DNA of 64,000 nucleotides from Solirubrobacteraceae bacterium (lineage in GTDB: Bacteria; Actinomycetota; Thermoleophilia; Solirubrobacterales; Solirubrobacteraceae): assembly GCA_025934395.1 (NCBI GenBank), contig JAICYC010000009.1, forward strand, positions 1 through 64,000. The letters run 5' to 3'. The translations under genes were made by a program, and so were the position numbers. The notes beneath the pieces are model-generated. The model ran no database searches. It was not told the origin of the DNA and saw only the letters and a program-made list of their open reading frames with translations. Positions 30,506 to 62,853 of this stretch are shown here, piece after piece; the first letter of the stretch is position 1; every line of letters begins with the position of its first letter.

Positions 30506-32509
30506 CTAGAGCAGGCCTCGCGCGCGCAGCAGCTCCAGCACGCGCTCGACCTCGTCGTCGACCGTTTCGCGGTGGCTGCCGAGCACGAGGTCCGGCTCGG
30601 CGGGGCGCTCGTACGGCGCGCCCACGCCCGTCATCCCCTCGAGCTCGCCGGCGCGCGCCCGCGCGTACAGGCCCTTGGGGTCGCGCTCCTCGCACAGCTC
30701 CAGCGGTGCGTCGACGAAGATCTCCAGGAACTGCAGGCCGTCGAGGTCGTGCAGCCCCGAGGCGGCTTCGCGATCGGCGGCGTAGGGGCTCACCAGGCTC
30801 ACCAGCGCGATCGTGCCGGACTCGGCGAGCAGGCGTGCGACGTGCGCGGTGCGCCGCACGTTCTCCGTGCGCGCGCGCTCGTCGAAGCCGAGGTCGCCGT
30901 TGAGCCCGTGGCGCAGGTTGTCGCCGTCGAGCAGGAACGCGGGGTGCCCCGCTTCGATCAGGCGCTCCTCGACAGCGGCGGCGACGGTCGACTTGCCCGC
31001 ACCGGGCAGGCCCGTGAACCACAGGGTCGCGCCGCTGTGCCCGAGTGAGCTCCAGCGGCGCTCCCGCGTCATGCGCGTGCCCTGCCAGCGCACGTTGGGG
31101 CTGCGCTCGGTCCTCGCCTCCGCCTCTTCCTCGACCTCGGTGTCGAGGATCACGCCCGCCCCGACCGTTTCGTTGGTTGCCTCGTCGATCACGATCAGGC
31201 TGCCCGTGACGCGGTTGCGGCGGTAGGAGTCGAACACGATCGGCGCGCTCAGCTGCAGGTGCACGCGCGCGAGGTCGTTCATCTCGAGGGTGGTGGCGCC
31301 GTCGTCGCGGCGCAGGCTTTCCACGTCGATCCGGTAGCGCACGTCGACGCCCCCCACGAGCGCCGTGCGCGTGGTGTGCTTGACCAGGTAGCGCCGTCCG
31401 CTGCTCAGCGGCCGCTCGGACATCCAGCAGAGCATGCACTCGAAGCTGTTGCTGACCGTGGGCTGGTTCTGCGGACGCACGATCGTCGAGCCGCGGCTGA
31501 TGTCGATGTCGTCCTCCAGGCGCAGCGCCACCGACATCGGCGGGAACGCCTCGTCGATCGTCCCCGAGAAGGTGTCGATCCCGGCCACGCGCGTGTGGTG
31601 GCCGCCCGGGAGCACGACCACTTCGTCACCCGCACGCAGCACGCCGCCCGCCATCTGGCCGCCGTAGGCGCGGTAGTCGGCGAGCGTGCTCGCCGGCGGC
31701 CGGATCACGTACTGGACCGGGAAGCGCACGTCGATCAGGTTCCGGTCGGAGGCGATGTGGACGTGCTCGAGGTGGTACAGCAGCGGCGGCCCCTGGTACC
31801 AGGACATGTTCTCCGAGCGCTCCACCACGTTGTCGCCGAGCAGCGCCGAGATCGGGATGAACGTGACGTCGGGCATCTCCAGGCGCGCGGCGAACGCGTC
31901 GAACTCCTCGACGATGCCTTCGAAGATCCCCTCGTCGAAGTCGACGAGGTCCATCTTGTTGACGCACACGACCACGTGCGGGATCCCGAGCATCGAGCTG
32001 ATGAACGCGTGCCGCTTGGACTGCGCCACGACCCCCTTGCGCGCGTCGACGAGCACGATCGCCAGGTCGGCGGTAGAGGCGCCGGTGACCATGTTGCGCG
32101 TGTACTGCTCGTGCCCGGGGGTGTCGGCGATGATGAAGCGCCGCTGCGCGGTCGCGAAGTAGCGGTAGGCGACGTCGATCGTGATCCCCTGCTCGCGCTC
32201 CGCCCGCAGCCCGTCGGTCAGGAGCGAGAGGTCCAGGAAGTCGTGGCCCATCCGCTCGCTGGTCTGCTCGACGTGGGCGAGCTGGTCGGTGAGCACCTGC
32301 TTGGAGTCGTAGAGCAGGCGCCCGATCAGCGTGCTCTTGCCATCGTCGACCGAGCCCGCGGTGGCGAACCGCAGGAGGTCGGCGGGCCGCTCGGTGAGGC
32401 GGCGGAAGATCTGCTCGGCGCTCTCGCCGTCGTGCGGAGGCTGGTGGGGGGCGACGTGGCTGTTCCCGTTCTCCAGGGCGCTCGTGAGGCGCTGCTCGCG
32501 GGCGTCCAT
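30506..32509 (-). CDS. cysNC: Bifunctional sulfate adenylyltransferase subunit 1 / APS kinase
   Basis: 667 residues. The N-terminal CysN GTPase has TAGSVDDGKSTLIGRLLYDS (G1), DTPGHEQYTRNM (G3) and VNKMDL (G4). The C-terminal APS kinase domain starts around residue 480 with LWFTGLPGAGKSTVAAAVEE and contains FLLDGDNLRHGLNGDLGF. It activates sulfate to APS with CysD, then phosphorylates APS to PAPS, the donor for sulfotransferases. It begins immediately after the cysD stop. No PAPS or sulfite reductase gene is present in the window, so a sulfation role is plausible. Confidence 0.97.
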   Translation of the reverse strand: MDAREQRLTSALENGNSHVAPHQPPHDGESAEQIFRRLTERPADLLRFATAGSVDDGKSTLIGRLLYDSKQVLTDQLAHVEQTSERMGHDFLDLSLLTDGLRAEREQGITIDVAYRYFATAQRRFIIADTPGHEQYTRNMVTGASTADLAIVLVDARKGVVAQSKRHAFISSMLGIPHVVVCVNKMDLVDFDEGIFEGIVEEFDAFAARLEMPDVTFIPISALLGDNVVERSENMSWYQGPPLLYHLEHVHIASDRNLIDVRFPVQYVIRPPASTLADYRAYGGQMAGGVLRAGDEVVVLPGGHHTRVAGIDTFSGTIDEAFPPMSVALRLEDDIDISRGSTIVRPQNQPTVSNSFECMLCWMSERPLSSGRRYLVKHTTRTALVGGVDVRYRIDVESLRRDDGATTLEMNDLARVHLQLSAPIVFDSYRRNRVTGSLIVIDEATNETVGAGVILDTEVEEEAEARTERSPNVRWQGTRMTRERRWSSLGHSGATLWFTGLPGAGKSTVAAAVEERLIEAGHPAFLLDGDNLRHGLNGDLGFDERARTENVRRTAHVARLLAESGTIALVSLVSPYAADREAASGLHDLDGLQFLEIFVDAPLELCEERDPKGLYARARAGELEGMTGVGAPYERPAEPDLVLGSHRETVDDEVERVLELLRARGLL

Positions 32510-33424
32510 CTAGAAGTACCCCTGCCGCTTTCGATCCTCCATCGCAGCCTCGGTGACCCGATCGTCTGCGCGCGTCTGCCCCCGCTCGGTCACCTCGGTT
32601 GCGGCGATCTCCGCGACCACCTGCTCGAGCGTGGCCGCGTCGGACTCGACCGCCCCGGTACAGCTCATGTCGCCGACGGTCCGGTAGCGCACGCGCGCCT
32701 GGAAGGGCGCCTCGTCCTCCATCATCTCCATGAACGGGCTGACCGCGTACAGCATCCCGTCGCGCGCGAACACCTCGCGGTCGTGGGCGAAGTAGATCGA
32801 GGGCACCTCGAGCTGCTCCTCGGCGATGTACTGCCACACGTCGAGCTCGGTCCAGTTGGAGATCGGGAACACCCGCGCGTGCTCGCCCTTGTGCAGGCGC
32901 CCGTTGTAGAGGCTCCACAGCTCCGGGCGCTGGTTCTGGGGCTCCCACTGGCCGAACTCGTTGCGGAACGAGAGGATCCGCTCCTTCGCGCGGGCGCGCT
33001 CCTCGTCACGACGGGCGCCGCCGAAGGCGGAGTCGAAGTCGTGCTCGGCGATCGCGTCGAGCAGCGTGACCGTCTGCAGCCCGTTGCGGGACGCGCGCGG
33101 GCCCGTCTGCTCGACGACGCGGCCGGCGGCGATCGAGTCCTCCACCGACGCGACGATCAGGCGCTCGCCGATCTCTTCGATCCGCCTGTCGCGGAACTCG
33201 ATCGCCTCGGGGAAGTTGTGGCCCGTGTCCACGTGCATGATCGGGAACGGGAACGGCGCGGGCCGGAACGCCTTCTCGGCGAGGCGCAGGAGCACGATCG
33301 AGTCCTTGCCGCCGCTGAAGAGCAGCACGGGTCGCTCGAACTCGGCGGCGACCTCACGCATAACGTGGACCGCCTCCGCCTCGAGAGTCCTCAGGTGCGG
33401 TAGGTGGTAAGTCTGCTGTTGCAT
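32510..33424 (-). CDS. cysD: Sulfate adenylyltransferase subunit 2
   Basis: 304 residues. PVLLFSGGKDSIVLLRLAEK is the PP-loop, with MHVDTGHNFPEAIEFRD and RRDEERARAKERILSFRNEF as family blocks; ISNWTELDVWQYIAEEQLEV lies in the C-terminal half. With CysN it makes APS from ATP and sulfate. Its TAG stop abuts the cysNC ATG, so the pair is an operon. TAGCCT lies about 16 nt before the ATG and could be a -10 box. Confidence 0.97.
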   Translation of the reverse strand: MQQQTYHLPHLRTLEAEAVHVMREVAAEFERPVLLFSGGKDSIVLLRLAEKAFRPAPFPFPIMHVDTGHNFPEAIEFRDRRIEEIGERLIVASVEDSIAAGRVVEQTGPRASRNGLQTVTLLDAIAEHDFDSAFGGARRDEERARAKERILSFRNEFGQWEPQNQRPELWSLYNGRLHKGEHARVFPISNWTELDVWQYIAEEQLEVPSIYFAHDREVFARDGMLYAVSPFMEMMEDEAPFQARVRYRTVGDMSCTGAVESDAATLEQVVAEIAATEVTERGQTRADDRVTEAAMEDRKRQGYF

Positions 33425-33496
33425 CCGTGCCTCGCTGGGGAGGCTACCCCTCGTGGAGCCAGTGAGGTGTGAACTTTAGGGTGCGCCGGGCCGCTG

Positions 33497-34672
33497 TCAA
33501 GCCGCCAGCCGCCCGTAGAGATCCAGCAAAGCGGCCGCGTGGCGCTCGGCGCCGAACTCCGCGAGCGCTCGCTGCCGGCCCGCGGAGCCCATCGCAACAG
33601 CCCGCTCGGGGTGCTCGCCGATCTCGGCGATCGCAGCGGCCCACGCGGCCGCGTCGCCGGGCGCGAGCAGGCGACCCTCGACCCCGTCGCGCACGATCTC
33701 CGGCGGCCCGCCCACGTTGGTGGCGAGCACGGGCACCCCCAGCGCCATCGCCTCGATCAGCGCGCGACCGAACGGCTCCTCGACCGACGGCAGCAGCAGC
33801 ACGTCGAGCGCCCGCATGATCTCCGGGACATCGCGGCGCTCGCCCAGGAAGGACACGCGGGCCTCCAGGCCCGCGCCCGCGATCGACGCGCGCAGACCCG
33901 CCACGTAGGCTTCGTTGTCGAAGCGGGTGGAGCGGGCCACGAACTTCGCCGAGCCGACCAGCAGCAGATGCGCGTCGAGGCCCGCGGCACACACGATCTC
34001 GAGCGCTCGCACGGCGGTGTCCTGGCCCTTCCACGGCGTCAGCTGCGCGACCACCCCGAGCAGCATGCGCCGCGTGCCGGCGAGCCCCAGCGCCGCTCGC
34101 GCGCCGGCGCGGTCGATCCGGGCCGGGTCGAACCGCGCGAGGTCGACCGGGTTGTGGACGACCTCGACCCGCGCGCGCGGAGCTGCCGCGAGCACCGCCC
34201 CGGCCGTGTAGCGGGAGTTCGCCACCACCACCCTCGCCGCCGCGGCGACCGTGCGCATCGTCGCCGTCGTCAGGAGTCCCGGCGGCAGCACGTCCCGCAC
34301 GTGGGTCACGCCCGCCCACGGGGCCGACGCCGGCGTCCCGAGCCGCGCGGCCGCCGCCACGATCCCCGCCCTGATCGAGTTCGCGTGCACCACCTGCGCG
34401 CCGTGGCGGCGCGCAGCGCGGCGAACCTGGCTGCCGGCAAGGGCCATCTCGGCGAGCGCCTGGGGCGTGTGCAGCGGGTGCAGGCGCAGGCTGCCCGCGG
34501 TCCCGCGGATCTCCGTCGTCGGAACGCCCGCCTCGTGCGCCGCGTCGAGCAGCTCGCCGCGCGGGGTGGCGAGCAGCGGCTCCACCTCGTCCGGAAGCGC
34601 GCGCAGCAGGCTCAGCAGCGAGCGCTCGCCGCCGCTCACCTCGGCGGTGTGGTTGACATACAGGACCCTCAC
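33497..34672 (-). CDS. Glycosyltransferase, GT4-like
   Basis: About 391 residues from GTG 34672 (VRVLYVNHTAEVSGGERSLL), which overlaps the upstream stop (GTGA). AQVVHANSIRAGIVAAAARL lies in the acceptor domain. The donor domain shows LLGVVAQLTPWKGQDTAVRA, HLLLVGSAKF and LLPSVEEPFGRALIEAMALG, a GT4 E-x7-E motif. It transfers a sugar from a nucleotide donor to a growing glycan. It sits downstream of another GT4 gene and upstream of cysD-cysNC, the polysaccharide sulfation context. Confidence 0.92.
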   Translation of the reverse strand: MRVLYVNHTAEVSGGERSLLSLLRALPDEVEPLLATPRGELLDAAHEAGVPTTEIRGTAGSLRLHPLHTPQALAEMALAGSQVRRAARRHGAQVVHANSIRAGIVAAAARLGTPASAPWAGVTHVRDVLPPGLLTTATMRTVAAAARVVVANSRYTAGAVLAAAPRARVEVVHNPVDLARFDPARIDRAGARAALGLAGTRRMLLGVVAQLTPWKGQDTAVRALEIVCAAGLDAHLLLVGSAKFVARSTRFDNEAYVAGLRASIAGAGLEARVSFLGERRDVPEIMRALDVLLLPSVEEPFGRALIEAMALGVPVLATNVGGPPEIVRDGVEGRLLAPGDAAAWAAAIAEIGEHPERAVAMGSAGRQRALAEFGAERHAAALLDLYGRLAA

Positions 34673-35796
34673 GCGCCGCCTCGCCCGGGGCGCGCCGCGA
34701 TCAGGTCGAGCAGCACGTCCTCCACGCGTGCGGCGACCGCCGGCCACGCGAAGGAGCGCGCCCGGGCGGCGCCCGCCTCCCCCAGCGAGCGCGCGCGCCC
34801 GGGGTCCAGAAGCAGCGAGCAGATCGCCTCGGCGAGCGCCGCCGCGTCGGTGGGATCGACGAGCAGGCCCGTCTCGCCGGCGCTGACCGCGTCGACCGCG
34901 CCCCCGACGTCGCCCGCGACCACCGGCAGCCCGTGGGCGGCGGCCTCGAGGAACACGATCCCGAACCCCTCGCCCGCCAGCCCCGCGCCGGGCAGGCGGC
35001 TCGGCATCGCGAACACGCTCGCGCGGTCGAGCCAGGCGTCACGCTCCTCGTCGCCGACGGCGCCCAGGAAGCTCACCGCGTCGGTCAGGCCCGCCGCGCG
35101 CGCGTGCGCTTCCAGCGAAGGGCGCAACGGCCCGTCGCCGACGATCACCCAGCGGACATCCGGAACGCGCGCGCGGATCGCCGGCAGCGCTTCCAGCAGG
35201 ACGTCGTGACCCTTGTAGGCGTCTGCGAGCCGCGCGATCGTGAGGATCGTGGGGCGCTCGCCTCCCGCCCGCCGCACGGTGTCGGGCAACGTCACCCCGG
35301 GCGAGATGCGGTGCAGCCGCTCGCTCGTACCCCCCGCCTCCAGGAGCAGGCGCTCGGTGTAGCCGCTGACCGCCATCGTCGCGCCCGCGCGGCGGGATGC
35401 GAACGCTGCCAGCCGGGGTTTGCCGACGATCTCGTTGGCGTGGTAGATGACCATGTGCGGTGCGCCGAGCAGCCGCGTCGTCGCGATCGCCGCGGGGCTC
35501 GTGACGATGTGGGCGTGCAACGCCACGTCTGCTCGGAAGCGGACGGCCGCCGCGAGCGCCGCGGCGTTCAGCGCGAGGTTGCGCGCGGGGCCGAGACGCG
35601 CATGGGTGGGCACGCGCAGCACCCTCCAGCCGGCATCACGGTCGTGATCGCGGGCGCCGGGGGAGTCGAGCGCGACCACACGCACCGCGAAGCGCTCGAT
35701 CGCGCCGAGCAGGCCGCCCATCAGCGCCTGGATGCCGCCGCGCGCGGGCGGAAGGTCGGGCGTGACGAGGAGCAGGCGGGGCGGACCCGCGCTCAT
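34669..35796 (-). CDS. Glycosyltransferase, GT4-like
   Basis: About 375 residues from ATG 35796 (MSAGPPRLLLVTPDLPPARG). PDLPPARGGIQALMGGLLGA is the N-terminal glycine-rich loop. The donor domain has TILTIARLADAYKGHDVLLE, WVIVGDGPLRPSLEAHARAA and GEGFGIVFLEAAAHGLPVVA. Its ATG overlaps the stop of a 14-residue leader ORF. It forms an operon with the following GT4 gene. Acceptor and linkage are unknown. Confidence 0.92.
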   Translation of the reverse strand: MSAGPPRLLLVTPDLPPARGGIQALMGGLLGAIERFAVRVVALDSPGARDHDRDAGWRVLRVPTHARLGPARNLALNAAALAAAVRFRADVALHAHIVTSPAAIATTRLLGAPHMVIYHANEIVGKPRLAAFASRRAGATMAVSGYTERLLLEAGGTSERLHRISPGVTLPDTVRRAGGERPTILTIARLADAYKGHDVLLEALPAIRARVPDVRWVIVGDGPLRPSLEAHARAAGLTDAVSFLGAVGDEERDAWLDRASVFAMPSRLPGAGLAGEGFGIVFLEAAAHGLPVVAGDVGGAVDAVSAGETGLLVDPTDAAALAEAICSLLLDPGRARSLGEAGAARARSFAWPAVAARVEDVLLDLIAARPGRGGA

Positions 35797-35837: not shown

Positions 35838-35843
35838 CGGCGC

Positions 35844-35998: not shown

Positions 35999-38875
35999 AT
36001 GCCCCCGCGCGACGGAACGCGCCGCGCCCTGCTCTGTCTCCTTGCCGCGTGCGTGTTGATGCTGTGCCTGGCGGCAAGCTCTCCGGCTCGGCGGGCCGCT
36101 GCCAGGGTGACGGTGAACGGCCGCTGCACCTCGCAGGCAGCACGCGCCCACGGGCGCCGCGCGCCGCGGAGCGGCTGTCGCGGGCACGCGCGCCGGACCC
36201 GCTCGCGCCACACCCGCGCGACCCCCCACCTCGCGCCGCGCGGGCTCGAAGCGACGCCCCTGGGCGCCGGCGAACCGGCGCCGGGCGAACCCTCGTCGAC
36301 CATGACCGAAGGCGAACCCGTCCTCGCCCCTGCGACGCCCGAAGCCGCGCTGGAAGCACCCGCCGCGACGCCTCCGGTCCGGACCCCCCGCGTCCGCGCC
36401 CCGCGCCGTGCGCCCACCGCGCCCCGCGTCCCGCGCGCGAAACGCGTTCGCGCCGTCGAAACCACATCCCCCCCGGCGGTCGAAACCCACGCCAGCGGCG
36501 AATCGACGCCGCCCCCGGCCCCCGTCTTGCTGCCCGCCACGCCGCCTGCAGCGTGCGAACCGCCCGTCGGAGCCACGACGGAAACGCCCGTGTGCGCGCA
36601 GGCGGAGACGTTCGGCGGCGCACCCGCGGACGTGCTGCTGACCTACTCCCGTGCGGTCTCTGCGACGCTCGCCTCGGGCTGCCAGGCGGTCAGCGCCGCC
36701 GGCGCGCACGAAGCCTTCGGCGGGATCGAACAGGGCCCGGGCGCCGCCACCGTCCGCCTCCAGCTCAACCCCGGCGCGCCGATGCCGGCCGGCGTCGAAT
36801 GTCCTCGCGAACCGGGTGTAGCGGGCGCAGGCTCCGGCGCCACCGCCACGATCGTCGTGTCTGCCGGGGCGGCGACCGAAGGCGGCGTGGTGAGCGACCC
36901 GATCGACCCGAAGTACCTGCTGCGGGTGCCGTTCGGGAAGACGTCCTTCTGGTTGCAGCCCTGGCGCGCCTACCTCGACACGTGGTCGAGCTCGCAGCTG
37001 CTGAACGCGCTCGGCATCAACTTCAACGCGCCGCCCGCAGACATGGAACCGGTCGCCCAGCTGCTGCAGGAAAGCGGCTTCAAGCTCGCACGCTTCGAGA
37101 TCGGGTTCAACGCGATCTCCTACACCGAACCGAACAGCCTCCGCGCGGGCAACGACGAAATCATCCGCGCCCGCCTGCGCGCGCTGCACAACCACGGCCT
37201 GCGTCCGCTGATCGTGCTGAACGCGAACAGCGAGGATCCGGCACCGAGCAAGGGCGCGCGCCTGGAAACGCTCGCGCCGGCGCCCCGCGGCGCCAACACC
37301 GTGCGGCTCAGCGCGGCGAGCGCCGCGCAGGTGGTGCCTGGCCTGACGGGCTTCGACAACATCACGTGGAAGGGCGGCCCGGACGTCCTGATCACCTCGG
37401 TCACGAGCGGCGGCGTCGCGACGCTGTCGCGACGCCTCTCCAAGGTGCTGCCGGCGGGCAGGCACGAAGGGACGACGCTGCGCTACGGCCCGTTCCAGTC
37501 GCCCACGCGCCTGAACGGGACGCCCAACCCCGCGTTCGGAGCGACGCTCGCCGGATGGCTCGACTACGTGCGCGTCGTGTGCCGCGAAGCCGAAGCGATC
37601 GCCGGGCCCGGAGGCTACGACCTCGAGATCTGGAACGAGCTGTCGTTCGGGTCGAAGTTCCTGAACGCCTCCAACTACGGCGCGCCCGTCGGCAACGGCA
37701 CGACGGCCGCGCGCAACAAGGCGCGCGTGACCAAAGCGGTGATGAAGGCGCTGCTGGACGAAACCACCTACTGGGTGCACGCACACGACCCCGGGGTCGG
37801 GATCAGCGACGGCTTCGCGAGCGAGTCGCCGTTCCCCAGCGGGCTCGGCGCGCCGATCGGCCTGACGGCGCTCAGCAAGCATCCCTACGCAGGCGGGCGC
37901 ACCTACCCTGCCGCCTACAAAGTCGGGTTCGACGTGCCGGTGAACGCGCTCGGAGTGCAGGACCTCACCCCGAAGCCGAAGCCGCCCTACAAACCGCTGT
38001 TCGTCCCCTCCTACTCGATGCTCCTGCCCGAGTACATGCTCACGGCGAGCTCGACGGAAACGCTGATCCGCGACATCGCGCCGATCACCACCGAAATCTA
38101 CGGCCTCGTCCACGGTCGCGAAGTCGGACCCAGAGGCGGTGCGCCCGTGCAGAAGTGGATCACCGAGTACAACCTCAGCCCGCCGATGGGCATCACCGGG
38201 CTGTCGCCCGCCGACGTGGCGCACTTCCGCGCGAAGGCGCTGCTGCGGAGCCTCGTCGCGATGTCCGCGAAGGGCATCGCACGCGACTACTTCTTCGGCG
38301 CCGCGCCCGGCGCGCTCAGCCTGATCGACCCGGGCTTCTACAAGGCGCTCGAAGCCGACCCCGGCTCCTACCCCGGCGCGGCGGCCGGCGGCGAAGTGCT
38401 GCAGACGTTCCGCAACCTCACCACCGCGATGCGGGGCCCCGGCCCCGCGGGCGCACCGCGCCGGCTCTCGCTCACGTCGATCGTGCAGGAAGGCAACCAC
38501 GCGCAGTGGGCGGGCGACGGCACGGCCGCCCACCCCAGCCTGTACGACCGCGAAGTGCTCGCGGTGTTCCCGTTCCAGACCGCGCCGAGCGAATTCGTCG
38601 TCCCCGTGTACGTGATGACGAGCAACCTGCTGACGCTGTACGACCCCGCCGCACCGCCCGCCGACGAGCAGCGCTGGGATCTCCCCGACGAGCCGTTCCG
38701 GATCACGCTCGGCGGGCTGCCCGAAGGCGGTCCGCCACCCATGGTGAGCGCATACGACCCGTTGCGGGGCGCCGCGAGCCCCGCGCGCCTGGTCTCACGC
38801 CAGGGCGCCACGGCGGTGTTCGAAGTCGCCGCCAGCGACTACCCGCGCCTGCTGCGCCTGACCTTCGGCAGCTGA
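35999..38875 (+). CDS. Secreted clan GH-A-like glycoside hydrolase
   Basis: 958 residues from ATG 35999. A signal peptide (RRALLCLLAACVLMLCLAASS) is followed by about 200 low-complexity Pro/Ala/Arg/Thr residues, a small domain with two Cys, then a catalytic-size domain from about residue 305. DLEIWNELSFG puts a Glu near 547 and WITEYNLSPP a Glu near 723, matching the acid/base and nucleophile positions of clan GH-A barrels (GH39- or GH5-like). It may trim or degrade the polysaccharide made by this locus. Glu codons are biased to GAA. The catalogue start at 35732 is upstream of the signal peptide and overlaps the divergent gene. Confidence 0.75.
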   Translation: MPPRDGTRRALLCLLAACVLMLCLAASSPARRAAARVTVNGRCTSQAARAHGRRAPRSGCRGHARRTRSRHTRATPHLAPRGLEATPLGAGEPAPGEPSSTMTEGEPVLAPATPEAALEAPAATPPVRTPRVRAPRRAPTAPRVPRAKRVRAVETTSPPAVETHASGESTPPPAPVLLPATPPAACEPPVGATTETPVCAQAETFGGAPADVLLTYSRAVSATLASGCQAVSAAGAHEAFGGIEQGPGAATVRLQLNPGAPMPAGVECPREPGVAGAGSGATATIVVSAGAATEGGVVSDPIDPKYLLRVPFGKTSFWLQPWRAYLDTWSSSQLLNALGINFNAPPADMEPVAQLLQESGFKLARFEIGFNAISYTEPNSLRAGNDEIIRARLRALHNHGLRPLIVLNANSEDPAPSKGARLETLAPAPRGANTVRLSAASAAQVVPGLTGFDNITWKGGPDVLITSVTSGGVATLSRRLSKVLPAGRHEGTTLRYGPFQSPTRLNGTPNPAFGATLAGWLDYVRVVCREAEAIAGPGGYDLEIWNELSFGSKFLNASNYGAPVGNGTTAARNKARVTKAVMKALLDETTYWVHAHDPGVGISDGFASESPFPSGLGAPIGLTALSKHPYAGGRTYPAAYKVGFDVPVNALGVQDLTPKPKPPYKPLFVPSYSMLLPEYMLTASSTETLIRDIAPITTEIYGLVHGREVGPRGGAPVQKWITEYNLSPPMGITGLSPADVAHFRAKALLRSLVAMSAKGIARDYFFGAAPGALSLIDPGFYKALEADPGSYPGAAAGGEVLQTFRNLTTAMRGPGPAGAPRRLSLTSIVQEGNHAQWAGDGTAAHPSLYDREVLAVFPFQTAPSEFVVPVYVMTSNLLTLYDPAAPPADEQRWDLPDEPFRITLGGLPEGGPPPMVSAYDPLRGAASPARLVSRQGATAVFEVAASDYPRLLRLTFGS

Positions 38876-39947: not shown

Positions 39948-40679
39948 CTATCGGCGCGGCGTGGCGAGCCAGTTGACGATGCGCGGATCCCGCGCGAAGT
40001 GCTCGCGGGCGACGGGCCCCTCGCCGACCACGGAGTAGACCCTGTAGCCGAGGCCGTCGAGCACGTCCCAGAGCGACCGCGAGCCGTAGCCGTACAGCTC
40101 CGCGGCGCCTGCCACGTGCTCGAAGATCACGGTGGGCCGGGCACGCTCGAGCAGCGTCGTGCCGCCCTCGAGCACCGCGAGCTCGTTGCCCTCGACGTCG
40201 ATCTTGAGCACGGTGACCGGGACGTCGGGCAGCTCCGCGTCGAGCGTTGACACCTCCACCGAGATGTACTCCGGGTCGCCGCGGCTGTCGCTGATCTCCG
40301 GGCTGCGGCGCAGGCCGCTCCAGCCGTCGAGCTTGCGGAAGTGGCAGAACTCGGCGGTCTCCGCACGCGCGCCGACGGCCTTCTGCCTGCAGTCCACGCC
40401 GGGGAAGCGGCGCTCCACCTCGCGCGCGAGGTCCGGGATCGGCTCGAAGGCGATCAGCCGCGCGCCCGGCGCCACACGCGCCGCCTCCGCGAGCACCTGG
40501 CCGCGGTTGGTGCCCACGTCCACGTAGATCCCTCCGTCGCGCAGCACCGCGGCGAGCACCGCCTCGATCCCGATCGCCTCCCGCTGCGCGATCCGCGCGG
40601 TCTCGTCGACCGCTGCGAGCAGCTCGGGGCGCCCGAGCCGCCGCGAGACGCCGCCGACGACCCTATTCACCGCCCGCAC
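39948..40679 (-). CDS. FkbM family methyltransferase
   Basis: 243 residues from GTG 40679 (GTG 40670 also possible). GIYVDVGTNRGQVLAEAARV is SAM motif I, then LIAFEPIPDLAREVERRFPG and VTVLKIDVEGNELAVLEGGT complete the FkbM pattern. It probably O-methylates a sugar of the surface polysaccharide. It overlaps the end of the upstream sulfotransferase gene by 17 bp, an operon, which links methylation and sulfation of the same product. Confidence 0.9.
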   Translation of the reverse strand: MRAVNRVVGGVSRRLGRPELLAAVDETARIAQREAIGIEAVLAAVLRDGGIYVDVGTNRGQVLAEAARVAPGARLIAFEPIPDLAREVERRFPGVDCRQKAVGARAETAEFCHFRKLDGWSGLRRSPEISDSRGDPEYISVEVSTLDAELPDVPVTVLKIDVEGNELAVLEGGTTLLERARPTVIFEHVAGAAELYGYGSRSLWDVLDGLGYRVYSVVGEGPVAREHFARDPRIVNWLATPRR

Positions 40680-55301: not shown

Positions 55302-56411
55302 TCAGCCGCCGGCGCGCGCGGCGATCTCCCCCATGCGGTCGAAGAAGCGCCTGCGCATCGCGGCGGTTGTGTAGTCGGCGAGATAGCTCTCCCGTCCCGC
55401 CGCCGCGATCTCGGCGCGCCGCTGCGGCGACTCCAGCAGCCGCTGCAGCGCATCGGCGAGGTCGCTGGGGTCGCCCGAGCGCGCGAGCACGCCGGTTGCG
55501 CCGTCCTGCACGAACTCCGCCGGCCCGCCGGAGTTGACCGCCATCACGGCCACGCCGCGCGCCATCCCCTCCAGGATCACGATCCCGAACGGCTCGGGGT
55601 CGGAGGCGTTCACGAGCACGTCCATGCGCTGGATGTAAGGCCCCGCGTCGGGCACCTCGCCCGTCATTGTGACGTCGTCGATCACGCCGAGCTCGCGCGC
55701 GAGCGGCTCGAGCGAGGAGGCGTACTCCGGAGAGAGCCCGTAGGAATCGCCGCCGACGATCAGCAGGTGGATGCGATGGCCGCGGTCGCGCAGGATCCGC
55801 TGGGCCCGCAGCAGCCGGTCCTGGTTCTTCCACGGCTGCAGGCGTCCGACGAGCCCCACGATCGGAACGTCGTCGGGCAGGGTGATCGCAGCCGGCGGCT
55901 GGCCCTCCGGAGGCGGCGGCGAGCCGGCGGCGATCGCGAACGTACGCCGCCTGGGGAACAGATGGGCCTGGGCGCGCTGCGATGCGCCCGAGTAGCACGC
56001 GATCGCGACGGCGGGCAGCAGCGTCGCGGTGACGTCGACCCACGCTCGGGCGGGGATCGCCTGCTGCCACCAGACGACGCGGTCGCTCTGGCCGGCGAGC
56101 ACCGCGGCCGGTGAGCCGTACAGGTGCGTTTTGGCCGACCAGTTCAGGATCACGTCGGGCCGGCGCTGACGCATCAGGCGGGTGAGCCGGGCGACCGTCG
56201 TGGCCCAGCGATGCGCCTCACGCAGCCGGCCGGCCTCGATCACCTCGACGCGCAGACCGGCGGAGCACAGCTCCTGCGGCCACGGCCCATCCTGGAAGAA
56301 GACGGGCTCGATCTCGTGGCCGCTGTCGGCCGCTCCCTCGAACACCCCCTGGAGCATCGCCTCCGCGCCCCCCAGCCGCTCCCCCCACGGGGCCGTTATG
56401 AGAATCCGCAT
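55302..56411 (-). CDS. Glycosyltransferase, GT4-like
   Basis: 369 residues. MRILITAPWGERLGGAEAML opens the acceptor domain. VPIVGLVGRLQPWKNQDRLL, LLIVGGDSYGLSPEYASSLE and ASDPEPFGIVILEGMARGVA are GT4 donor-domain signatures. It follows the methyltransferase gene by 9 bp, likely co-transcribed from the TATGTT promoter at 57191. Sugar specificity unknown. Confidence 0.93.
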   Translation of the reverse strand: MRILITAPWGERLGGAEAMLQGVFEGAADSGHEIEPVFFQDGPWPQELCSAGLRVEVIEAGRLREAHRWATTVARLTRLMRQRRPDVILNWSAKTHLYGSPAAVLAGQSDRVVWWQQAIPARAWVDVTATLLPAVAIACYSGASQRAQAHLFPRRRTFAIAAGSPPPPEGQPPAAITLPDDVPIVGLVGRLQPWKNQDRLLRAQRILRDRGHRIHLLIVGGDSYGLSPEYASSLEPLARELGVIDDVTMTGEVPDAGPYIQRMDVLVNASDPEPFGIVILEGMARGVAVMAVNSGGPAEFVQDGATGVLARSGDPSDLADALQRLLESPQRRAEIAAAGRESYLADYTTAAMRRRFFDRMGEIAARAGG

Positions 56412-56420
56412 GGGCGGCGG

Positions 56421-57179
56421 TCACCTCGGCTTCACGCCGGTCATCGCGACGCTCAGATGGGGGTAGCCGAGGACGCGCGTCAGCGGGCGGTCGAGCAGCA
56501 CCAGCGGGCGCAGGGGCAGCACGAGCCCCCATCCCGCCACCCGGCCCAGTCGCGCGGTCAGGCGGCGCATGAGGTTGGTGAGCTTCTGCGAGACGACGCC
56601 GCTGACGAAGTCCTCGCTCTCCACCTCGAGGCCCACCTCCCGGGCGATCTCCCGCAACCGCTCCGGCGAGTAGCCGAAGCGCACGTGGGAGCCGTCCTCG
56701 ACGCCGCTCGGCTCGCGCTCCTCGGTGTGGAGCGGGTGGTGGGCGTCGTAGGGCGTGCTCAGCAGCAGGCGGCCACCCGGCTCGAGCATCGCCGCGAGCG
56801 AGCGCACGAGACCGACGTCGTCGCTGAGATGCTCGATCGTCTCCAGGCAGATGATCTGGTCGAAGCGCCCCAGCTGATCGCGGTGCTGCTCGATCTCGCG
56901 CAGATCGATCAGGCGGAAGTCGATCCCGGAGACACCCAGCTGCTCGGCGCGCCGTCGCGCGTCGTCCTGCTCGCGCGGTGAGAAGGAGCCCGCGACCACG
57001 GAGTTGCCCTCTCGCGCCGCGTAGATGCTGAACGCGCCGTTGCCGCACCCGGCGTCGAACGTGCGCAGCGGCCCGCCCCGCAGGTGCCGCCGCAGCCACA
57101 GCCAGCGGTCGAGCACGCAGGGGTCGCCATGAATCAGGAGCGGGGTCCAGCCGAAGGCCCGCAGCATCGTGTCCGGCAT
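56421..57179 (-). CDS. Class I SAM-dependent methyltransferase
   Basis: 252 residues from ATG 57179. TFDAGCGNGAFSIYAAREGN is motif I, QIICLETIEHLSDDVGLVRS motif II/post-I, and LEPGGRLLLSTPYDAHHPLH motif III. These match UbiE/COQ5- or capsule-type methyltransferases. A substrate in the glycan or its lipid carrier is inferred from context. TATGTT, 6 nt before the ATG, suggests a leaderless transcript. Confidence 0.88.
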   Translation of the reverse strand: MPDTMLRAFGWTPLLIHGDPCVLDRWLWLRRHLRGGPLRTFDAGCGNGAFSIYAAREGNSVVAGSFSPREQDDARRRAEQLGVSGIDFRLIDLREIEQHRDQLGRFDQIICLETIEHLSDDVGLVRSLAAMLEPGGRLLLSTPYDAHHPLHTEEREPSGVEDGSHVRFGYSPERLREIAREVGLEVESEDFVSGVVSQKLTNLMRRLTARLGRVAGWGLVLPLRPLVLLDRPLTRVLGYPHLSVAMTGVKPR

Positions 57180-57185
57180 CCCGGG

Positions 57186-57191
57186 AACATA
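57186..57191 (-). promoter_or_regulatory. -10 box TATGTT before the methyltransferase-GT operon
   Basis: Reverse-strand TATGTT, 6-nt spacer CCCGGG, ATG 57179. Its position makes the start codon the likely transcript start. Confidence 0.5.
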
Positions 57192-57286
57192 TATCGGACG
57201 CTCTGCCGCGGAATCGACGCTCTGCCGCGGGGATCGGGGCCCTGGCCGGCGTTCCGCGGGGTTCGAGCGCGACGGTGCGGCGCGGA

Positions 57287-57292
57287 TAGTGT
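57287..57292 (+). promoter_or_regulatory. -10 box TAGTGT, 8 nt before a glycosyltransferase start
   Basis: TAGTGT, spacer of 8 nt, ATG 57301. It is divergent from the methyltransferase promoter about 100 bp away. Confidence 0.4.
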
Positions 57293-57300
57293 TCTGGCGG

Positions 57301-58431
57301 ATGAGCGACGCGCCCTCCAGCCCCGAGCGCGTTGCGATCGCGCACGACTACCTGCTCGTGATGCGGGGCGCGGAGCGCACGTTCGCTGCGATCGCGCAGC
57401 TGTACGAGCGCGCGCCGATCTACACCCTGCTCTACGACGAGGCGGGAACCGCGGGGCGGTTCGCGGGCCGCTCCATCACCACCTCCCCGCTGCAGCGTCT
57501 CGGCGTGGGCCAGAACGGCTTCCGCAGGCTGCTCCCGCTGTACCCGTTCGCCGTGCGGCGCCTGGCCCCCGAGCCGTGCGACGCGGTGGTGAGCAGCAGC
57601 AGCGCGTTCGCGCACGGGCTGACGGTGCCCGCCGGCGCCGTGCACGTCTGCTACTGCCACGCCCCGTTCCGCTACGCGTGGTACGAGCAGGAGCGCGCCC
57701 TCGCCGAGACGCCCGCGCCGCTGCGCGCGCCGCTGCGCGCACAGCTGGCGTGGATGCGCCGGTGGGACCGCGCGGCGAGTGAGCGCGTGGACCACTACGT
57801 CGCCAACTCGCAGCTCACGCGCGAGCGGATCCGGCGCTTCTACGGGCGCGACGCGCCGATCGTGCACCCGCCGGTGGAAACCGAGCGCTTCGCACCGGGC
57901 ACGCCCGGCGACTCGCTGCTGGTGGTCTCCGAGCTCGTGCACCACAAGCGGGTGCACGTGGCGCTCGAGGCGGCGCGGCGCGCGCACGCGGCGATCCGGA
58001 TCGTGGGGCGCGGTCCCGAGCACGACGCGCTGCGCGCCGCCTACCCCGAGGCGGAGTTCCTGGGGCGGGCCGACGACAGCGAGATCGCGTCGCTGTACGC
58101 GCAGGCCCGCGCAGTGATCGTCCCCAGCCGCGAGGAGTTCGGGATCACCGCGGTGGAGGCCCAGGCCGCCGGCCGCCCAGTGATCGCGGCGGCCGAGGGC
58201 GGGGCGCTCGAGACGGTGATCGACGGCGAGACGGGAACGCACGTGCCGCTCGACGACGTCGACGCGTTCGCACGTGCGATCGCGGAGATCGACGAGCTGC
58301 ACTTCGACCCCGCGCGCGCGGTGGCCAACGCGGCGAGGTTCTCGGTGGCGTCGTTCCGAGGCCGGCTCGCCGAGCAGGTCGCGGCGGCCCTCGCCGCCGG
58401 GCCGCGCTCGGTCCGCGCGCGGATAGGGTGA
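57301..58431 (+). CDS. Glycosyltransferase, GT4-like (WbdA/WbaZ-type)
   Basis: 376 residues from ATG 57301. VAIAHDYLLVMRGAERTFAA, HVCYCHAPFRYAWYEQE and VDHYVANSQLTRERIRRFYG are typical of mannosyl- or rhamnosyl-type GT4 enzymes of O-antigen and capsule clusters. VVSELVHHKRVHVALEAARR and PSREEFGITAVEAQAAGRPV form the donor domain. The catalogue start at 57169 is too far upstream. It is followed 7 bp later by another glycosyltransferase gene. Confidence 0.92.
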   Translation: MSDAPSSPERVAIAHDYLLVMRGAERTFAAIAQLYERAPIYTLLYDEAGTAGRFAGRSITTSPLQRLGVGQNGFRRLLPLYPFAVRRLAPEPCDAVVSSSSAFAHGLTVPAGAVHVCYCHAPFRYAWYEQERALAETPAPLRAPLRAQLAWMRRWDRAASERVDHYVANSQLTRERIRRFYGRDAPIVHPPVETERFAPGTPGDSLLVVSELVHHKRVHVALEAARRAHAAIRIVGRGPEHDALRAAYPEAEFLGRADDSEIASLYAQARAVIVPSREEFGITAVEAQAAGRPVIAAAEGGALETVIDGETGTHVPLDDVDAFARAIAEIDELHFDPARAVANAARFSVASFRGRLAEQVAAALAAGPRSVRARIG

Positions 58432-58438
58432 GCCGCCG

Positions 58439-59680
58439 ATGGCCGAGGCGTCTCTTCACATCGCGTGGCTGGGCCCGGCACCGGGGGAGGACGGCGGTGT
58501 GGCGGGGGTCGCCACCGAGCTGATGGGCGGCCTCGCCGCACGGGGGCACCGGATCGACGCGTTCTTTCCCTCCTCGGGCCAGGTGATCCCGGAGCGCCTG
58601 CGCGACCGCCCCGATGTGGTCTTCCACTGGGGGACGAGCGAATGGAAGTGGGATCGCTGGTACAGCCGCTCGCGGATCGGCGCGTTCCTCAGCGGGATGG
58701 TCGCCCGCGGGCTCGCGTCGGTGCGCCTGCGGCGCGAGATCGTCGCGCGACACGCCGAGGATCCCTTCGACCTCGTCTACCAGTTCTCCAGCATCGAGAG
58801 CTTCGCGCTGCCCGGCGCGCTGCGCCGGAGCGTGCCGTTGGTGCTCCACCCGGAGACCCACGCCGCCGGCGAGCTGCGGGCCCTGATCGGCGAGCGCAGG
58901 CTGGGCCTGCGCTGCCACCCCACCGGCCGCTACCTAACCGTCGTGGCGACGATGCTGCTGCGCTCGGCCCTCCAGCTGTACATGATCCGGCGAGCCGCGC
59001 TGCTCGTGTGCATCAGCGGCGTCTTCCGCGATCACATGGTGGCCGACTACCGCTTCCCCCGCGCGCGCACGGTGGTGGCGCCGAACCCGGTGCGCCTCGA
59101 GCGTTTCGAGCCCGCGGACGCCCCCGTGGGCGATCCGCCGCAGGTGCTCGTGCTCGGACGGATCGCGGTGCGCAAGGGGGTGCAGGACGTGGTCTGCGCA
59201 GCACGGGAGCTGGCCGCGCGCGGCGAGCGCGTGCGCTTCCGGATCGTGGGGGGTCCGAGCCTGTGGTCGGACTACACGCCGCTGCTGGAGGATCTGCCGG
59301 ACGGGGCCGAGTACGCGGGGCGGGTGTCCGCAGCGGACATCGGCGCGGAGCTGGCCGCGAGCGACGTGCTGCTGCAGCCGAGCCACTACGAGCCGTTCGC
59401 GCTGACCGTCGCGGAGGCGCTCGCCGCCGGCGTTCCGGTCGTAGGCACGAGCGAGGTGGGCGCGATCGAGCGGGTCGACCGGGTGGTGGCGGCGTGCGTG
59501 CCGCCGGGGTCTCCCACGGCGATCGCCGACGCGATCCTGGCGATGATCGAGCGGGTGCGCGCCGACCCGGGCGCGGTGAGCGCGCTCGCTCGCAGCGAGG
59601 CGCAGCGCCTGTACGCGCCCGAGGTGGTGTGCGCGACCGTCGCCGACGCGCTCGCGGCCCTCGCCGCTAGTCGCGCCTGA
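58439..59680 (+). CDS. Glycosyltransferase, GT4-like
   Basis: 413 residues. HIAWLGPAPGEDGGVAGVAT is the N-terminal loop, VLVLGRIAVRKGVQDVVCAA the donor-domain start, and QPSHYEPFALTVAEALAAGV the E-x7-E region. It is co-oriented with the previous gene. TAGGGT, 9 nt before the ATG and inside the previous gene's end, could add an internal promoter. Its end overlaps the convergent methyltransferase gene by 14 bp. Confidence 0.92.
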   Translation: MAEASLHIAWLGPAPGEDGGVAGVATELMGGLAARGHRIDAFFPSSGQVIPERLRDRPDVVFHWGTSEWKWDRWYSRSRIGAFLSGMVARGLASVRLRREIVARHAEDPFDLVYQFSSIESFALPGALRRSVPLVLHPETHAAGELRALIGERRLGLRCHPTGRYLTVVATMLLRSALQLYMIRRAALLVCISGVFRDHMVADYRFPRARTVVAPNPVRLERFEPADAPVGDPPQVLVLGRIAVRKGVQDVVCAARELAARGERVRFRIVGGPSLWSDYTPLLEDLPDGAEYAGRVSAADIGAELAASDVLLQPSHYEPFALTVAEALAAGVPVVGTSEVGAIERVDRVVAACVPPGSPTAIADAILAMIERVRADPGAVSALARSEAQRLYAPEVVCATVADALAALAASRA

Positions 59681-60404
59681 CCTCGTAGCGGCGCAGCAGC
59701 GCGTCCCGGCGATGGCGCAGCGGGGCGAGCGCGCCCCGCCGACCACCGGCGCCCGCGCCGGCCGAGCGGGCGGCGCGAGCGGCCTCGGTCTCGCGTGCGA
59801 CCTCCGGGTACTGGGTGCGGGCGCGCTTGAGCTCCACGATCCGGCGCTCGAGCTCGCGGGCACGCTCCGGGCCGGTCTCGACGGGCCGCGCGGGGTCCTT
59901 GATCGCCACGAGCGCGATGTCGAACTGCCGCACGACGTTCAGGAGATGCCGGCGCGACCAGCGCCGCAGCGGCCGCGGGAGGATGCCGAAGGCGCCCATG
60001 TAGGTGAAGCGCACGAGCACGCGGCGGAAGCTGAGCTCGCCGTCCTCGGCGGCAGACCCCTGCAGCGCGTCGGGGTCGAAGAAGTCGAACGAGTGCTCGT
60101 TGAAGTTGTGGTGGTGGTAGGGGTTCACCATGTGGTGTTCGGTCAGCGTGGCGTACGGCAGCGAGAGCAGCAGCACCCCGTCGTGCTCGAGCACCCTGTG
60201 GATCTCCGACAGCGCGAAGAGGTAGTCGGGGACGTGCTCCAGCGTGTGGTGGGAGACCACGGTGCTGACGCTGTCGCTGTCGAACGGCAGTCGCTCGGTG
60301 CCGAGGTCGAGGCTGACCTCGGCGCGCTCGTGGATGTCGATGTTGACGAAGCCCGGGATGAACGTCTTCGCGGCGCCGAGGTTGAGCTGGACGGGATCGG
60401 CCAC
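59667..60404 (-). CDS. Class I SAM-dependent methyltransferase (Methyltransf_11-like)
   Basis: 245 residues. VQLNLGAAKTFIPGFVNIDI is a short form of motif I, followed by LPFDSDSVSTVVSHHTLEHV and HDGVLLLSLPYATL. Proteins with this NLGAGxxxxxGxxNxD-like start are common in lipopolysaccharide and capsule clusters. The C-terminal 60 residues are helical and basic (AREL ERRIVELKRARTQYP region). It lies 1 bp after the glycosyltransferase-like gene 60406..61221, an operon. Confidence 0.85.
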   Translation of the reverse strand: MADPVQLNLGAAKTFIPGFVNIDIHERAEVSLDLGTERLPFDSDSVSTVVSHHTLEHVPDYLFALSEIHRVLEHDGVLLLSLPYATLTEHHMVNPYHHHNFNEHSFDFFDPDALQGSAAEDGELSFRRVLVRFTYMGAFGILPRPLRRWSRRHLLNVVRQFDIALVAIKDPARPVETGPERARELERRIVELKRARTQYPEVARETEAARAARSAGAGAGGRRGALAPLRHRRDALLRRYEVRRD

Positions 60405-60405
60405 C

Positions 60406-61221
60406 TCAGATCAGCTCCGAGAGCCACGTCTCGTCGCCCGCGTAGATGCGGTCGTAGAGCGACTGGGAGAGCGCCAGGCGCCTGCCCTGCGTGCGCTCCT
60501 CCCAGGCGCGCCAGCGGCGCCTGTCGATCGCCCGGCCGATCCGCCCTGCGCCGGGCACCGGGGGCAGCTTCACCGGCGCGGGCGCGCCTTCGCTCTTGTG
60601 GATCCCGCTCGGGCCCCCCTTGCGAAAGCCGGAGCCGTGGTGGTAGACGATGTCGCCGTACACGCCGAAGAAGATCGGGTCGAGGTCGTGCCGGTTGCTG
60701 CGCAGCAGCGCCTCCCACGGCGTGCCGGTCAGCTCGAGCCGGCGCATCAGCGCGCCGCCCACGTCGGTCCGCAAGCGCCCGCGCGGCCCCCGCCACGCCG
60801 GGCCCGCCGACCAGTCGCCGGGGAGCGAGCGCCAGGTGCGCACGCTCGTCACGCAGAAGCACGGGTGCGGCTGCGGTTCGTCGAGGTTCTCAGCCCGCCG
60901 GACCGCCACGAGCGCGGCCCGCGACAGGGCCGCTTCCAGCCTCGGCATCGGGTCCGCGATCGGGAACGCATCGCCGTCCAGGAACATGATCAGGTCGTCC
61001 GGGTCGGCGACCTCGGAGATCTCCATCGCGAGGTGGTTGAGCTTGCCGGCGTGCGGCCCGAGCTGCTCGATCACGTGGTCGAAGTGGGTGCCGTAGGAGG
61101 GGTCGATGTCCTCGAGCGACGTCCACGTCTGAAACGGCACCGCGAGGTGCCTGCGCAGGTAGCGGGTCTGGATCTCGACCCAGCGCGGAGAGCGGTAGTG
61201 AACCGTTGCGATGTGGAGCAT
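60406..61221 (-). CDS. GT-A-like glycosyltransferase of unknown specificity
   Basis: 271 residues. MLHIATVHYRSPRWVEIQTR starts a Rossmann-like nucleotide-sugar domain, and DDLIMFLDGDAFPIADPMPR contains a D-x-D motif typical of metal-dependent GT-A enzymes. CFCVTSVRTWRSLPGDW and DPIFFGVYGDIVYHHGSGFR follow. I do not recognise a named family. Co-transcribed with the methyltransferase gene downstream; no clear -10 box is seen before its ATG. Confidence 0.7.
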   Translation of the reverse strand: MLHIATVHYRSPRWVEIQTRYLRRHLAVPFQTWTSLEDIDPSYGTHFDHVIEQLGPHAGKLNHLAMEISEVADPDDLIMFLDGDAFPIADPMPRLEAALSRAALVAVRRAENLDEPQPHPCFCVTSVRTWRSLPGDWSAGPAWRGPRGRLRTDVGGALMRRLELTGTPWEALLRSNRHDLDPIFFGVYGDIVYHHGSGFRKGGPSGIHKSEGAPAPVKLPPVPGAGRIGRAIDRRRWRAWEERTQGRRLALSQSLYDRIYAGDETWLSELI

Positions 61222-61350
61222 GGGGTCGTGGATCCGTTCAGGGCGGCGGCGTGCATCCCGACCGGCCGCTGGGCGCGCAGCGCGCCCAGGCCCCTTCGAC
61301 CAGCGCGATCATAGCTGCGGCCCGCGTGCGCCCCGAGCGCGGCGGAGGGC

Positions 61351-62853
61351 CTAGAGGCCGCGGCGTCCGAGCACGTGCGGGACGGTCCGCAGGAGGATCT
61401 TCACGTCGGTCCAGAGAGACCAGTTGGCCACGTACAGGTAGTCGATCGCGACCATCTCCTTCAGCGGCACCCGCGAGGGCCCGAGGATCTGCCACGGGCC
61501 GGTCATCCCCGGCATCAGCTCCAGTCGGCGGCGGTGCCACCCCTCCACGCGCTGGTCCTCCTCGACGACCAGCGGACGAGGCCCGACGAGGCTCATCTCG
61601 CCTTTGAAGACGTTCATGAGCTGCGGCAGCTCGTCGAGCGCCGTGCTGCGCAGCAGGCGCCCGACGCGCGTCACGCGCGGGTCCTCGGCGATCTTGAACA
61701 GCCCCTCCTTGGCCTCGTTGCGGTGGCGCAGCGAGTCCTTCATCGCGTCGGCCCCGTCGACCATCGTGCGGAACTTGAGCATGTGGAAGCGGTGGCCGTG
61801 GCGGCCCACGCGCAGCTGGCGGAAGAACACGGGCCCGCGCGAGTCGAGCTTGATCGCGATCGCGATCGCGAGCAGGATCGGCGAGATCGCGATCAGCCCC
61901 AGCGATGCGCCGAGCAGGTCGAAGGCGCGTTTGAAGGCCGCCGAGGAGCGCGTCAGGTCGAAGCGGCGCACGCCCATCACGGTGACGCCGTGCAGGTCGT
62001 CGAACTCGACCGAGGAGCCCACGACCTCGAGCAGTCGCGGTAGCACGCTCACGCGCACCCCGACCGCCTTGAGCGTCCTGACGAGGTTGAGCATCTCGCC
62101 CGCGTCCACGCTGCGGGGCGCGATTATCGCGCGGTGGACGTCGAGGGTCTGGGCGAGGTCGCGGATCTCCGCCAGCCGCGGCTCGGAGAAGGAGTCGGTT
62201 GACCACGGCTCGACCTTGTCGAGGTCCAGGTGCGCGACCACCTTGGCGTTGACACCGCCGTGGCCGACGAGCTTCGCGCGGATCGTCTCGGCGGAGATCT
62301 CGTCGCCGATGAACAGACAACGCTCGATCGGCGAGACGCGCAGGGCGATCATGCGCGCCACCGACCGGCCGAGGATCAGCAGCGCAGCCAGCGACACCCA
62401 CAGGAACAGCGCCTCGTGGCGGTCGAGCGCGCCGCGCACGAGCAGGCCTTCGGTCAGCCAGGCGATCAGCGCACAGAGCGTCGCGAGCTGGAACAGCCGC
62501 GGCGCCTCGTCGAGCGTTGTCTTGCGCAGAAGCGTCTCGTCACGGTCGTAGAGGCCGGTGAGCTTCGCGCACACGACCAGGATCGGGACCGCCGCGAGCA
62601 CCGCCCAGGTGAGCTGCAGCGAGCGGCGTGAGAGCTCGACCGTGAGCACGAAGGCGGTCACGATCGCGATCACGTCGGCGGTGACGAGCAGGCGCCTGAA
62701 AACCGAGTCGCGGCGCATGCAGGCAGCCGGACCGCGCACCTCTGCGATGCCGGTCGTGAGCAGCCTGCGCCGACCCAGCTTCCCGCGTGTTACGGGAAGC
62801 GGCCGACCCCAACCTACGCCTGTCTCGGCGCTGCCGCCGGTCTCGACGCTCAT
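61351..62853 (-). CDS. Exopolysaccharide polyprenyl glycosylphosphotransferase (WbaP/WcaJ-type)
   Basis: 500 residues from ATG 62853, with AAGGAGG about 12 nt upstream. Four or five N-terminal membrane helices, a CoA-binding-like Rossmann segment (CLFIGDEISAETIRAKLV), then the bacterial sugar transferase domain: KRAFDLLGASLGLIAISPIL, GPVFFRQLRVGRHGHRFHML, LKFRTM, DELPQLMNVFKGEMSLVGPR and PGMTGPWQI. It starts each repeat unit by moving sugar-phosphate onto undecaprenyl phosphate. The promoter has a direct repeat over its -35. Confidence 0.95.
   Translation of the reverse strand: MSVETGGSAETGVGWGRPLPVTRGKLGRRRLLTTGIAEVRGPAACMRRDSVFRRLLVTADVIAIVTAFVLTVELSRRSLQLTWAVLAAVPILVVCAKLTGLYDRDETLLRKTTLDEAPRLFQLATLCALIAWLTEGLLVRGALDRHEALFLWVSLAALLILGRSVARMIALRVSPIERCLFIGDEISAETIRAKLVGHGGVNAKVVAHLDLDKVEPWSTDSFSEPRLAEIRDLAQTLDVHRAIIAPRSVDAGEMLNLVRTLKAVGVRVSVLPRLLEVVGSSVEFDDLHGVTVMGVRRFDLTRSSAAFKRAFDLLGASLGLIAISPILLAIAIAIKLDSRGPVFFRQLRVGRHGHRFHMLKFRTMVDGADAMKDSLRHRNEAKEGLFKIAEDPRVTRVGRLLRSTALDELPQLMNVFKGEMSLVGPRPLVVEEDQRVEGWHRRRLELMPGMTGPWQILGPSRVPLKEMVAIDYLYVANWSLWTDVKILLRTVPHVLGRRGL

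Follow-up and report, generated by a model that had tools for sequence, protein, structure and literature searches.

A 64,000-nt stretch of contig JAICYC010000009.1 from a Solirubrobacteraceae bacterium (assembly GCA_025934395.1), hereafter the window, carries at positions 30506-62853 a dense row of genes that probably direct the assembly, sulfation and export of a surface polysaccharide (Table 1). The host genome assembly comprises 3.0 Mb in 151 contigs and is 91% complete; its closest named relatives are metagenome-assembled genomes (MAGs) of Solirubrobacterales and Solirubrobacteraceae. Gene families were called on the window proteins with Pfam and NCBIfam at curated cut-offs. These calls confirmed nearly all of an inventory drawn up in a first-pass annotation from the letters alone: genes for synthesis of 3'-phosphoadenosine 5'-phosphosulfate (PAPS), five sulfotransferases (STs) in the interval and a sixth outside it at 19.4 kb, at least seven glycosyltransferases (GTs), a priming transferase, an ABC exporter and methyltransferases.

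The polymer-assembly genes are closely packed with four of the STs. On the minus strand the order Wzc-Wzy-ABC-ST_F-ST_E-GT is maintained with overlaps of 4-11 bp between adjacent genes, and ST_D-ST_C-GT overlap likewise by 16-17 bp; because of these overlapping ends, STs and assembly genes are probable co-translated units. The Wzc-like assignment holds for the Wzz part, which exceeds its cut-off, but not for the kinase part, whose models fall below theirs, as does the NCBIfam eps_fam match (7e-24). The proposed Wzy-like polymerase has the appropriate topology and weakly matching orthologues, three of ten matching PF04932 (Wzy_C, best 1e-4), but the protein itself has no Pfam match, and its structure model (pLDDT 56) retrieves WaaL as the best PDB match at a non-significant E of 0.43. 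No MOP-superfamily Wzx flippase is among the cluster's Pfam matches; the ABC exporter occupies its place, and Polysacc_synt-family proteins are present elsewhere in the host genome. ABC flippases of the PglK type serve protein glycosylation, and the exporter does match the NCBIfam PglK model, below its cut-off, which gives some ground for supposing that the acceptor of the STs is instead a teichoic-acid-like polymer or the glycan of a surface protein, made through the same lipid-linked pathway. The Wzc-like and Wzy-like proteins, however, indicate a long polymer, and in Pfam scans of the interval we noticed no oligosaccharyltransferase, so that such an acceptor appears very unlikely.

All six STs exceed the PF13469 cut-off and five of them that of PF00685. 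In an alignment of 64 STs of the main family, from which ST_B was left out, K20, T23, T24, E43, R111 and S119 are at least 95% conserved, and alignment to a heparan sulfate 3-O-sulfotransferase (HS 3-OST) reveals retention of the PAPS-site residues GxxKxGTT, E43, R111 and S119, which we take to correspond to the 5'-phosphosulfate loop, to the position of the catalytic glutamate in heparan STs and to the 3'-phosphate Arg/Ser pair, respectively. The array STs have no predicted membrane segments, which would place them in the cytosol. The nearest solved structures are 3rnl and the heparan 3-O- and N-STs, at low identity, the glycopeptide STs Teg12 and Teg14 being far weaker matches; in a search among plasmid records, ST_E matched XssA of the synechan cluster with 29% identity over 62% of the query. 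Other ST contexts on plasmids include a polysaccharide-type neighbourhood in Jannaschia and an unannotated one in S. meliloti.

In the ST tree, whose deep branching is poorly resolved and whose bootstrap had not settled, the ST_F clade unites 13 rows from 11 species, and cross-species groups, variably supported, exist for ST_A, ST_C, ST_D and ST_E as well. An ST of the ST_A clade occupies the same site in G092 as in the host, and one to three ST_B orthologues lie in the cluster of six relatives (G092, G095, G096, G098, G104, G105). The pattern points to a number of long-standing specificities and not to recent copying, and recent tandem duplication is not favoured, since the orthologous groups span species; such old groups would therefore imply distinct acceptor sites. 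The start of ST_B most likely lies at 41601, in which case it no longer overlaps the GT at 41700. Another host contig (L084, G000:C108, 964-1905) bears one more ST of the main family, 53% identical to ST_E.

The origin of the PAPS deserves separate consideration. CysD and CysNC are common assimilation genes, and one relative (G093) carries cysDNC in the corresponding place but lacks STs, so the pair might serve ordinary sulfate assimilation and adjoin the polysaccharide cluster by accident, the STs using PAPS as a by-product. Yet the host possesses an assimilatory cysH-cysD-cysN operon on a separate contig, with an unfused cysN and a cysD that adjoins cysH (G000:C128) and is 79% identical to the cluster CysD; the cysH-cysD pair is present across the host genus, and the fused second copy tracks the ST array. 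The cluster cysD/N/C copy is distinct from the assimilatory one, and cluster copies stand apart from assimilatory copies in the CysD tree (support 96/64). Host CysH, like the CysH proteins of 21 other genomes examined, carries the CC...CxxC cysteine pattern of 4Fe-4S adenosine 5'-phosphosulfate (APS) reductases, so that assimilation presumably proceeds from APS and does not need PAPS. Because of the separate operon and a single APS kinase, the cluster CysNC being the only one found in the incomplete (91%) host assembly, cluster PAPS is probably dispensable for cysteine synthesis and appears dedicated to sulfation. An assimilatory role for cysD-cysNC was rejected in view of the separate operon, and accidental adjacency is hardly credible.

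Several observations on sulfur metabolism accompany this picture. An APS kinase unfused to CysN occurs in ST-lacking G099, G100, G102, G108, G109 and others, mostly in genomes without any PF13469 protein. In G101, which is without the close ST family, the APS kinase lies near a Wzc homologue (L109, G101:C3:30001-50000, with L177-L179), and other PF13469 STs are on the same and other contigs; this is perhaps a second, independent sulfation cluster. No CysQ-type PAP phosphatase adjoins the host cluster, the single PF00459 protein sitting on another contig. A TauE/SafE-type permease, with an 83% orthologue near a fragment of the polyprenyl glycosylphosphotransferase (PGT) in G097, adjoins the priming transferase and has a possible role in sulfur transport.

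Co-occurrence was assessed in 24 genomes of the host genus (G000 being the host and G091-G112 among the relatives). The close ST family is present in 12 of them; an ABC orthologue of more than 50% identity occurs in the same 12 and in G091, a Wzy orthologue in 10 of the 12, and fused CysNC in 11 of the 12 and in G093. Fisher p values against the ST array are 1e-5 for ABC, 7e-5 for Wzy and 1e-4 for fused CysNC, and overstate independence because the CysH tree joins most ST-bearing genomes in a single clade. PF13469 proteins are wholly absent from 9 of the 12 genomes lacking the close family. Synteny is seen in about ten species; where contigs are good, gene order is kept from cysNC to the priming transferase, and several left-flank genes are 78-91% identical. 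A check suggested in the first-pass annotation, whether the Wzc/Wzy/ABC block, cysNC and STs of the YLGRD type are conserved together among relatives, thus gave a positive outcome; judged from the gene order conserved across species, the association is not due to chance. G112 carries an ST/ABC cluster (G112:C171, L080) while its CysH groups with that of ST-lacking G111, possibly through horizontal transfer or a binning error.

Beyond the genus the elements come apart. In a class-wide sample with few candidates scored per genome, the close ST family was found only in the host genus. Wzy relatives occur in four genomes from other genera of the family, where their neighbourhoods hold Wzc and GT homologues and, in one case, also a priming transferase and an ABC homologue; no ST or full CysNC was found in these four neighbourhoods. 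Since sister genera keep Wzy/Wzc/GT clusters free of STs and CysNC, the simplest reading suggests that a plain polysaccharide cluster gained its sulfation module later, in the host genus; loss of an ancestral module in the sister genera is a less simple alternative. One further MAG, MAS3.bin140, shows a row of Wzc (30%), ABC (47%) and ST (52%) homologues at 5360-10963 of locus L029, where no Wzy of this family was found.

With PAPS synthesis genes and STs lying inside a polysaccharide cluster, the best explanation, to which we assign a probability of about 0.8, is a locus for a Wzy-dependent surface polysaccharide, equipped with a sulfation module of its own, in keeping with the multiply sulfated surface polysaccharide first proposed. 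CysD and CysNC would convert sulfate to PAPS, the priming transferase would place the first sugar on undecaprenyl phosphate, and at least seven GTs would assemble the repeat unit in the cytosol. There the STs may sulfate several different sites on it, and further modification would come from methyltransferases and, in certain species, a deacetylase. Flipping of the unit would fall to the ABC exporter, polymerisation to the Wzy-like protein, and control of chain length or of export to the Wzc-like protein. Inference enters where we let the polysaccharide receive the sulfate, in several copies and in the cytosol, and where we make the ABC exporter a flippase; any biological role is likewise inferred.

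The STs might instead sulfate a glycolipid, a short cell-wall glycan or a secreted small molecule that the GTs produce and the ABC protein exports, with no long sulfated polymer involved. ABCB-type exporters also carry lipids and small molecules, the Wzy assignment is weak, and rhizobia and mycobacteria have some STs with lipo-oligosaccharide acceptors (PMC8205485). Against such a product speak the Wzc/Wzz-like and Wzy-like genes packed tightly and co-occurring with the STs, the priming PGT within the same cluster, and the nearest solved ST relatives, which act on polysaccharide. The STs do not cluster only with lipid or small-molecule enzymes, their nearest characterised relatives being the heparan STs and XssA at low identity, and we consider this alternative unlikely. 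Several points nevertheless weigh against a sulfated polysaccharide. ST substrate class is not readable from sequence, given the low identities to XssA and to the heparan enzymes, and the Wzy and glycoside hydrolase (GH) assignments are weak. Genomes of the genus that lack STs also carry stand-alone APS kinase, and informative exceptions are few (G093, with cysDNC and no STs, and G112, outside the ST-bearing clade that inflates the Fisher values). The genomes compared are MAGs, with clusters split over contigs in several.

Table 1. Features of the window (ST, sulfotransferase; GT, glycosyltransferase; GH, glycoside hydrolase)
Feature	Position	Strand	Basis
c-di-AMP riboswitch (ydaO/yuaA)	1380..1501	+	56 bits
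DPBB_1 lytic-transglycosylase-like ORF	1392..2012		
EgtD-like histidine-specific methyltransferase	14811..16292	+	PF10017 3e-112
ST_A, left of main cluster	19375..20352	-	Pfam; clade of 8 rows, 100/98
CysNC, ATP-sulfurylase GTPase subunit fused to APS kinase (PAPS synthesis)	30506..32509	-	PF01583 3e-59; NCBIfam NF004035 above cut-off
CysD, ATP sulfurylase small subunit, second genome copy	32510..33424	-	NCBIfam CysD above cut-off
GT4 glycosyltransferase	33497..34747	-	Pfam
Secreted protein, possibly clan GH-A glycoside hydrolase (tentative)	35999..38875	+	hydrophobic signal-like N-terminus; WNE and TEYN motifs
FkbM-type methyltransferase	39948..40679	-	PF05050 3e-17; syntenic orthologues 60-65%
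ST_B, second ST family	40663..41601	-	PF13469 3e-10
GT4 glycosyltransferase	41700..42944	+	Pfam
GT4 glycosyltransferase	42860..44002	-	Pfam
ST_C	43987..44910	-	PF13469 7e-21; matches to PDB 3rnl and HS 3-OST
ST_D	44894..45904	-	PF13469 8e-17; cross-species clade 99/97
PIG-L/LmbE-type de-N-acetylase, accessory	46003..46839	+	PF02585 1.7e-6, just above cut-off
GT4 glycosyltransferase	46862..48001	-	Pfam
ST_E	47991..48962	-	PF13469 3e-16; matches synechan-cluster XssA, 8e-13
ST_F, adjoins ABC gene in most species	48952..49980	-	PF13469 2e-17; orthologous clade 99/90
ABC exporter, ABCB/MsbA/PglK-type, proposed flippase	49977..51848	-	Pfam, NCBIfam
Wzy-like polymerase, polytopic	51845..53437	-	multiple predicted transmembrane segments; weak orthologue matches
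Wzc-like protein, chain-length/BY-kinase-like	53434..55050	-	Wzz PF02706 above cut-off; AAA_31
GT4 glycosyltransferase	55302..56411	-	Pfam
SAM-dependent methyltransferase	56421..57179	-	Pfam
GT4 glycosyltransferase	57169..58431	+	Pfam
GT4 glycosyltransferase	58439..59680	+	Pfam
SAM-dependent methyltransferase	59667..60404	-	Pfam
Protein with glycosyltransferase-like FLDGDAF motif	60406..61221	-	no family match (Pfam, NCBIfam); 61% orthologue in G092 cluster
Polyprenyl glycosylphosphotransferase (priming enzyme)	61351..62970	-	TIGR03025 1e-102, above cut-off
TauE/SafE-type permease	63221..63997	+	

Among the remaining cluster genes, the GT4 enzyme beside cysD has 63-67% orthologues near cysNC/cysD in five relatives (G096, G092, G105, G095, G103). 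The secreted GH of the first-pass annotation retains its signal-like N-terminus and GH-A-like motifs, but it has no Pfam family match and its structure model (mean pLDDT 51) is too poor for the structural matches to be meaningful; orthologues lie in the cluster of G098, G105 and G103. PDB sequence searches with this protein and the Wzy-like protein gave no useful match. The predicted de-N-acetylase passes its cut-off only just. It would be central to a more specific version of the sulfated polymer, namely a heparan-like, multiply sulfated chain with N-sulfated amino sugars and a position-specific pattern evolved independently of animals, in which the PIG-L protein de-N-acetylates, the adjacent NDST/3-OST-like ST sulfates the amine and each position has its own ST. 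PIG-L orthologues above 55% identity occur in five genomes and in the cluster region of only three, the host included; PIG-L as a fixed ST partner was not supported, and we regard the heparan-like scheme as quite unlikely.

Outside the cluster, the riboswitch lies at the start of the DPBB_1 ORF, whose true start is probably downstream of it. The EgtD-like match suggests ergothioneine synthesis.

Sulfated polysaccharides are best known from animals, algae and cyanobacteria. The statement that they are rarely described in this bacterial group is right but needs updating with the wps-1 cluster of Actinoplanes missouriensis (PMC13390465, June 2026), a published prediction of sulfation and the only earlier one in actinobacteria. 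There, too, an actinomycete has a Wzy/Wzz-type cluster, which includes a heparan-ST-like ST, a methyltransferase and a GH; AMIS_7390, an ATP-sulfurylase/APS-kinase gene close by, is required for normal sporangia (PMC13390465). It differs from the present cluster in bacterial class, in its Wzx-type flippase, in having two STs versus five or six here, and in its GT2/GT26 glycosyltransferases. The literature searched yielded no paper dealing with STs of Solirubrobacter or Thermoleophilia.

Chemically supported systems provide firmer points of reference. The product of the synechan xss cluster on pSYSM of Synechocystis PCC 6803 has been shown chemically to be sulfated, and XssA is needed for synechan (PMC8205485). 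This proven Wzy-type cluster resembles the host locus in the pathway proposed for the latter, in a PCP protein and in STs, among them the XssA matched by ST_E, and has eight GTs; it differs in its cyanobacterial host, two STs, a Wzx of the oligosaccharide-flippase family and a gene list without PAPS genes. For Vibrio sp. KMM 8419, the joint presence of PAPS genes and STs within a polysaccharide cluster is named as the hallmark of sulfated polysaccharide synthesis (PMC11641403), and sulfate is chemically established in the capsules of this strain and of Cobetia marina KMM 1449 (PMC11641403, PMC11766843). Both have cysD/N/C and STs in the cluster, as second copies in Vibrio and with fused cysN/cysC in Cobetia, whereas Kps-type ABC export, in-cluster nucleotide-sugar genes and a marine gammaproteobacterial host set them apart. 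The alphaproteobacterium Ascidiaceihabitans AH-578-E10 (L033) has CysD, CysNC and three STs within ~9 kb. Animal heparan sulfate 3-O- and N-STs resemble the host STs over the PAPS-binding parts, but they are Golgi enzymes acting on polymer, identity is low, and there is no evidence here for a heparan-like backbone.

Among these systems the host cluster is new by bacterial class, has an unusually high number of STs and places an ABC exporter where a Wzx would be. With it, genome-based prediction of sulfated surface polysaccharides reaches non-marine settings and a soil lineage of Solirubrobacterales, for which the literature searched describes no such system. Sister genera, with homologous clusters free of STs, offer a natural control, and the old ST paralogues, preserved as cross-species orthologous groups, make the number and positions of sulfates directly testable, while also providing a bacterial ST set related in sequence to the heparan enzymes of animals.

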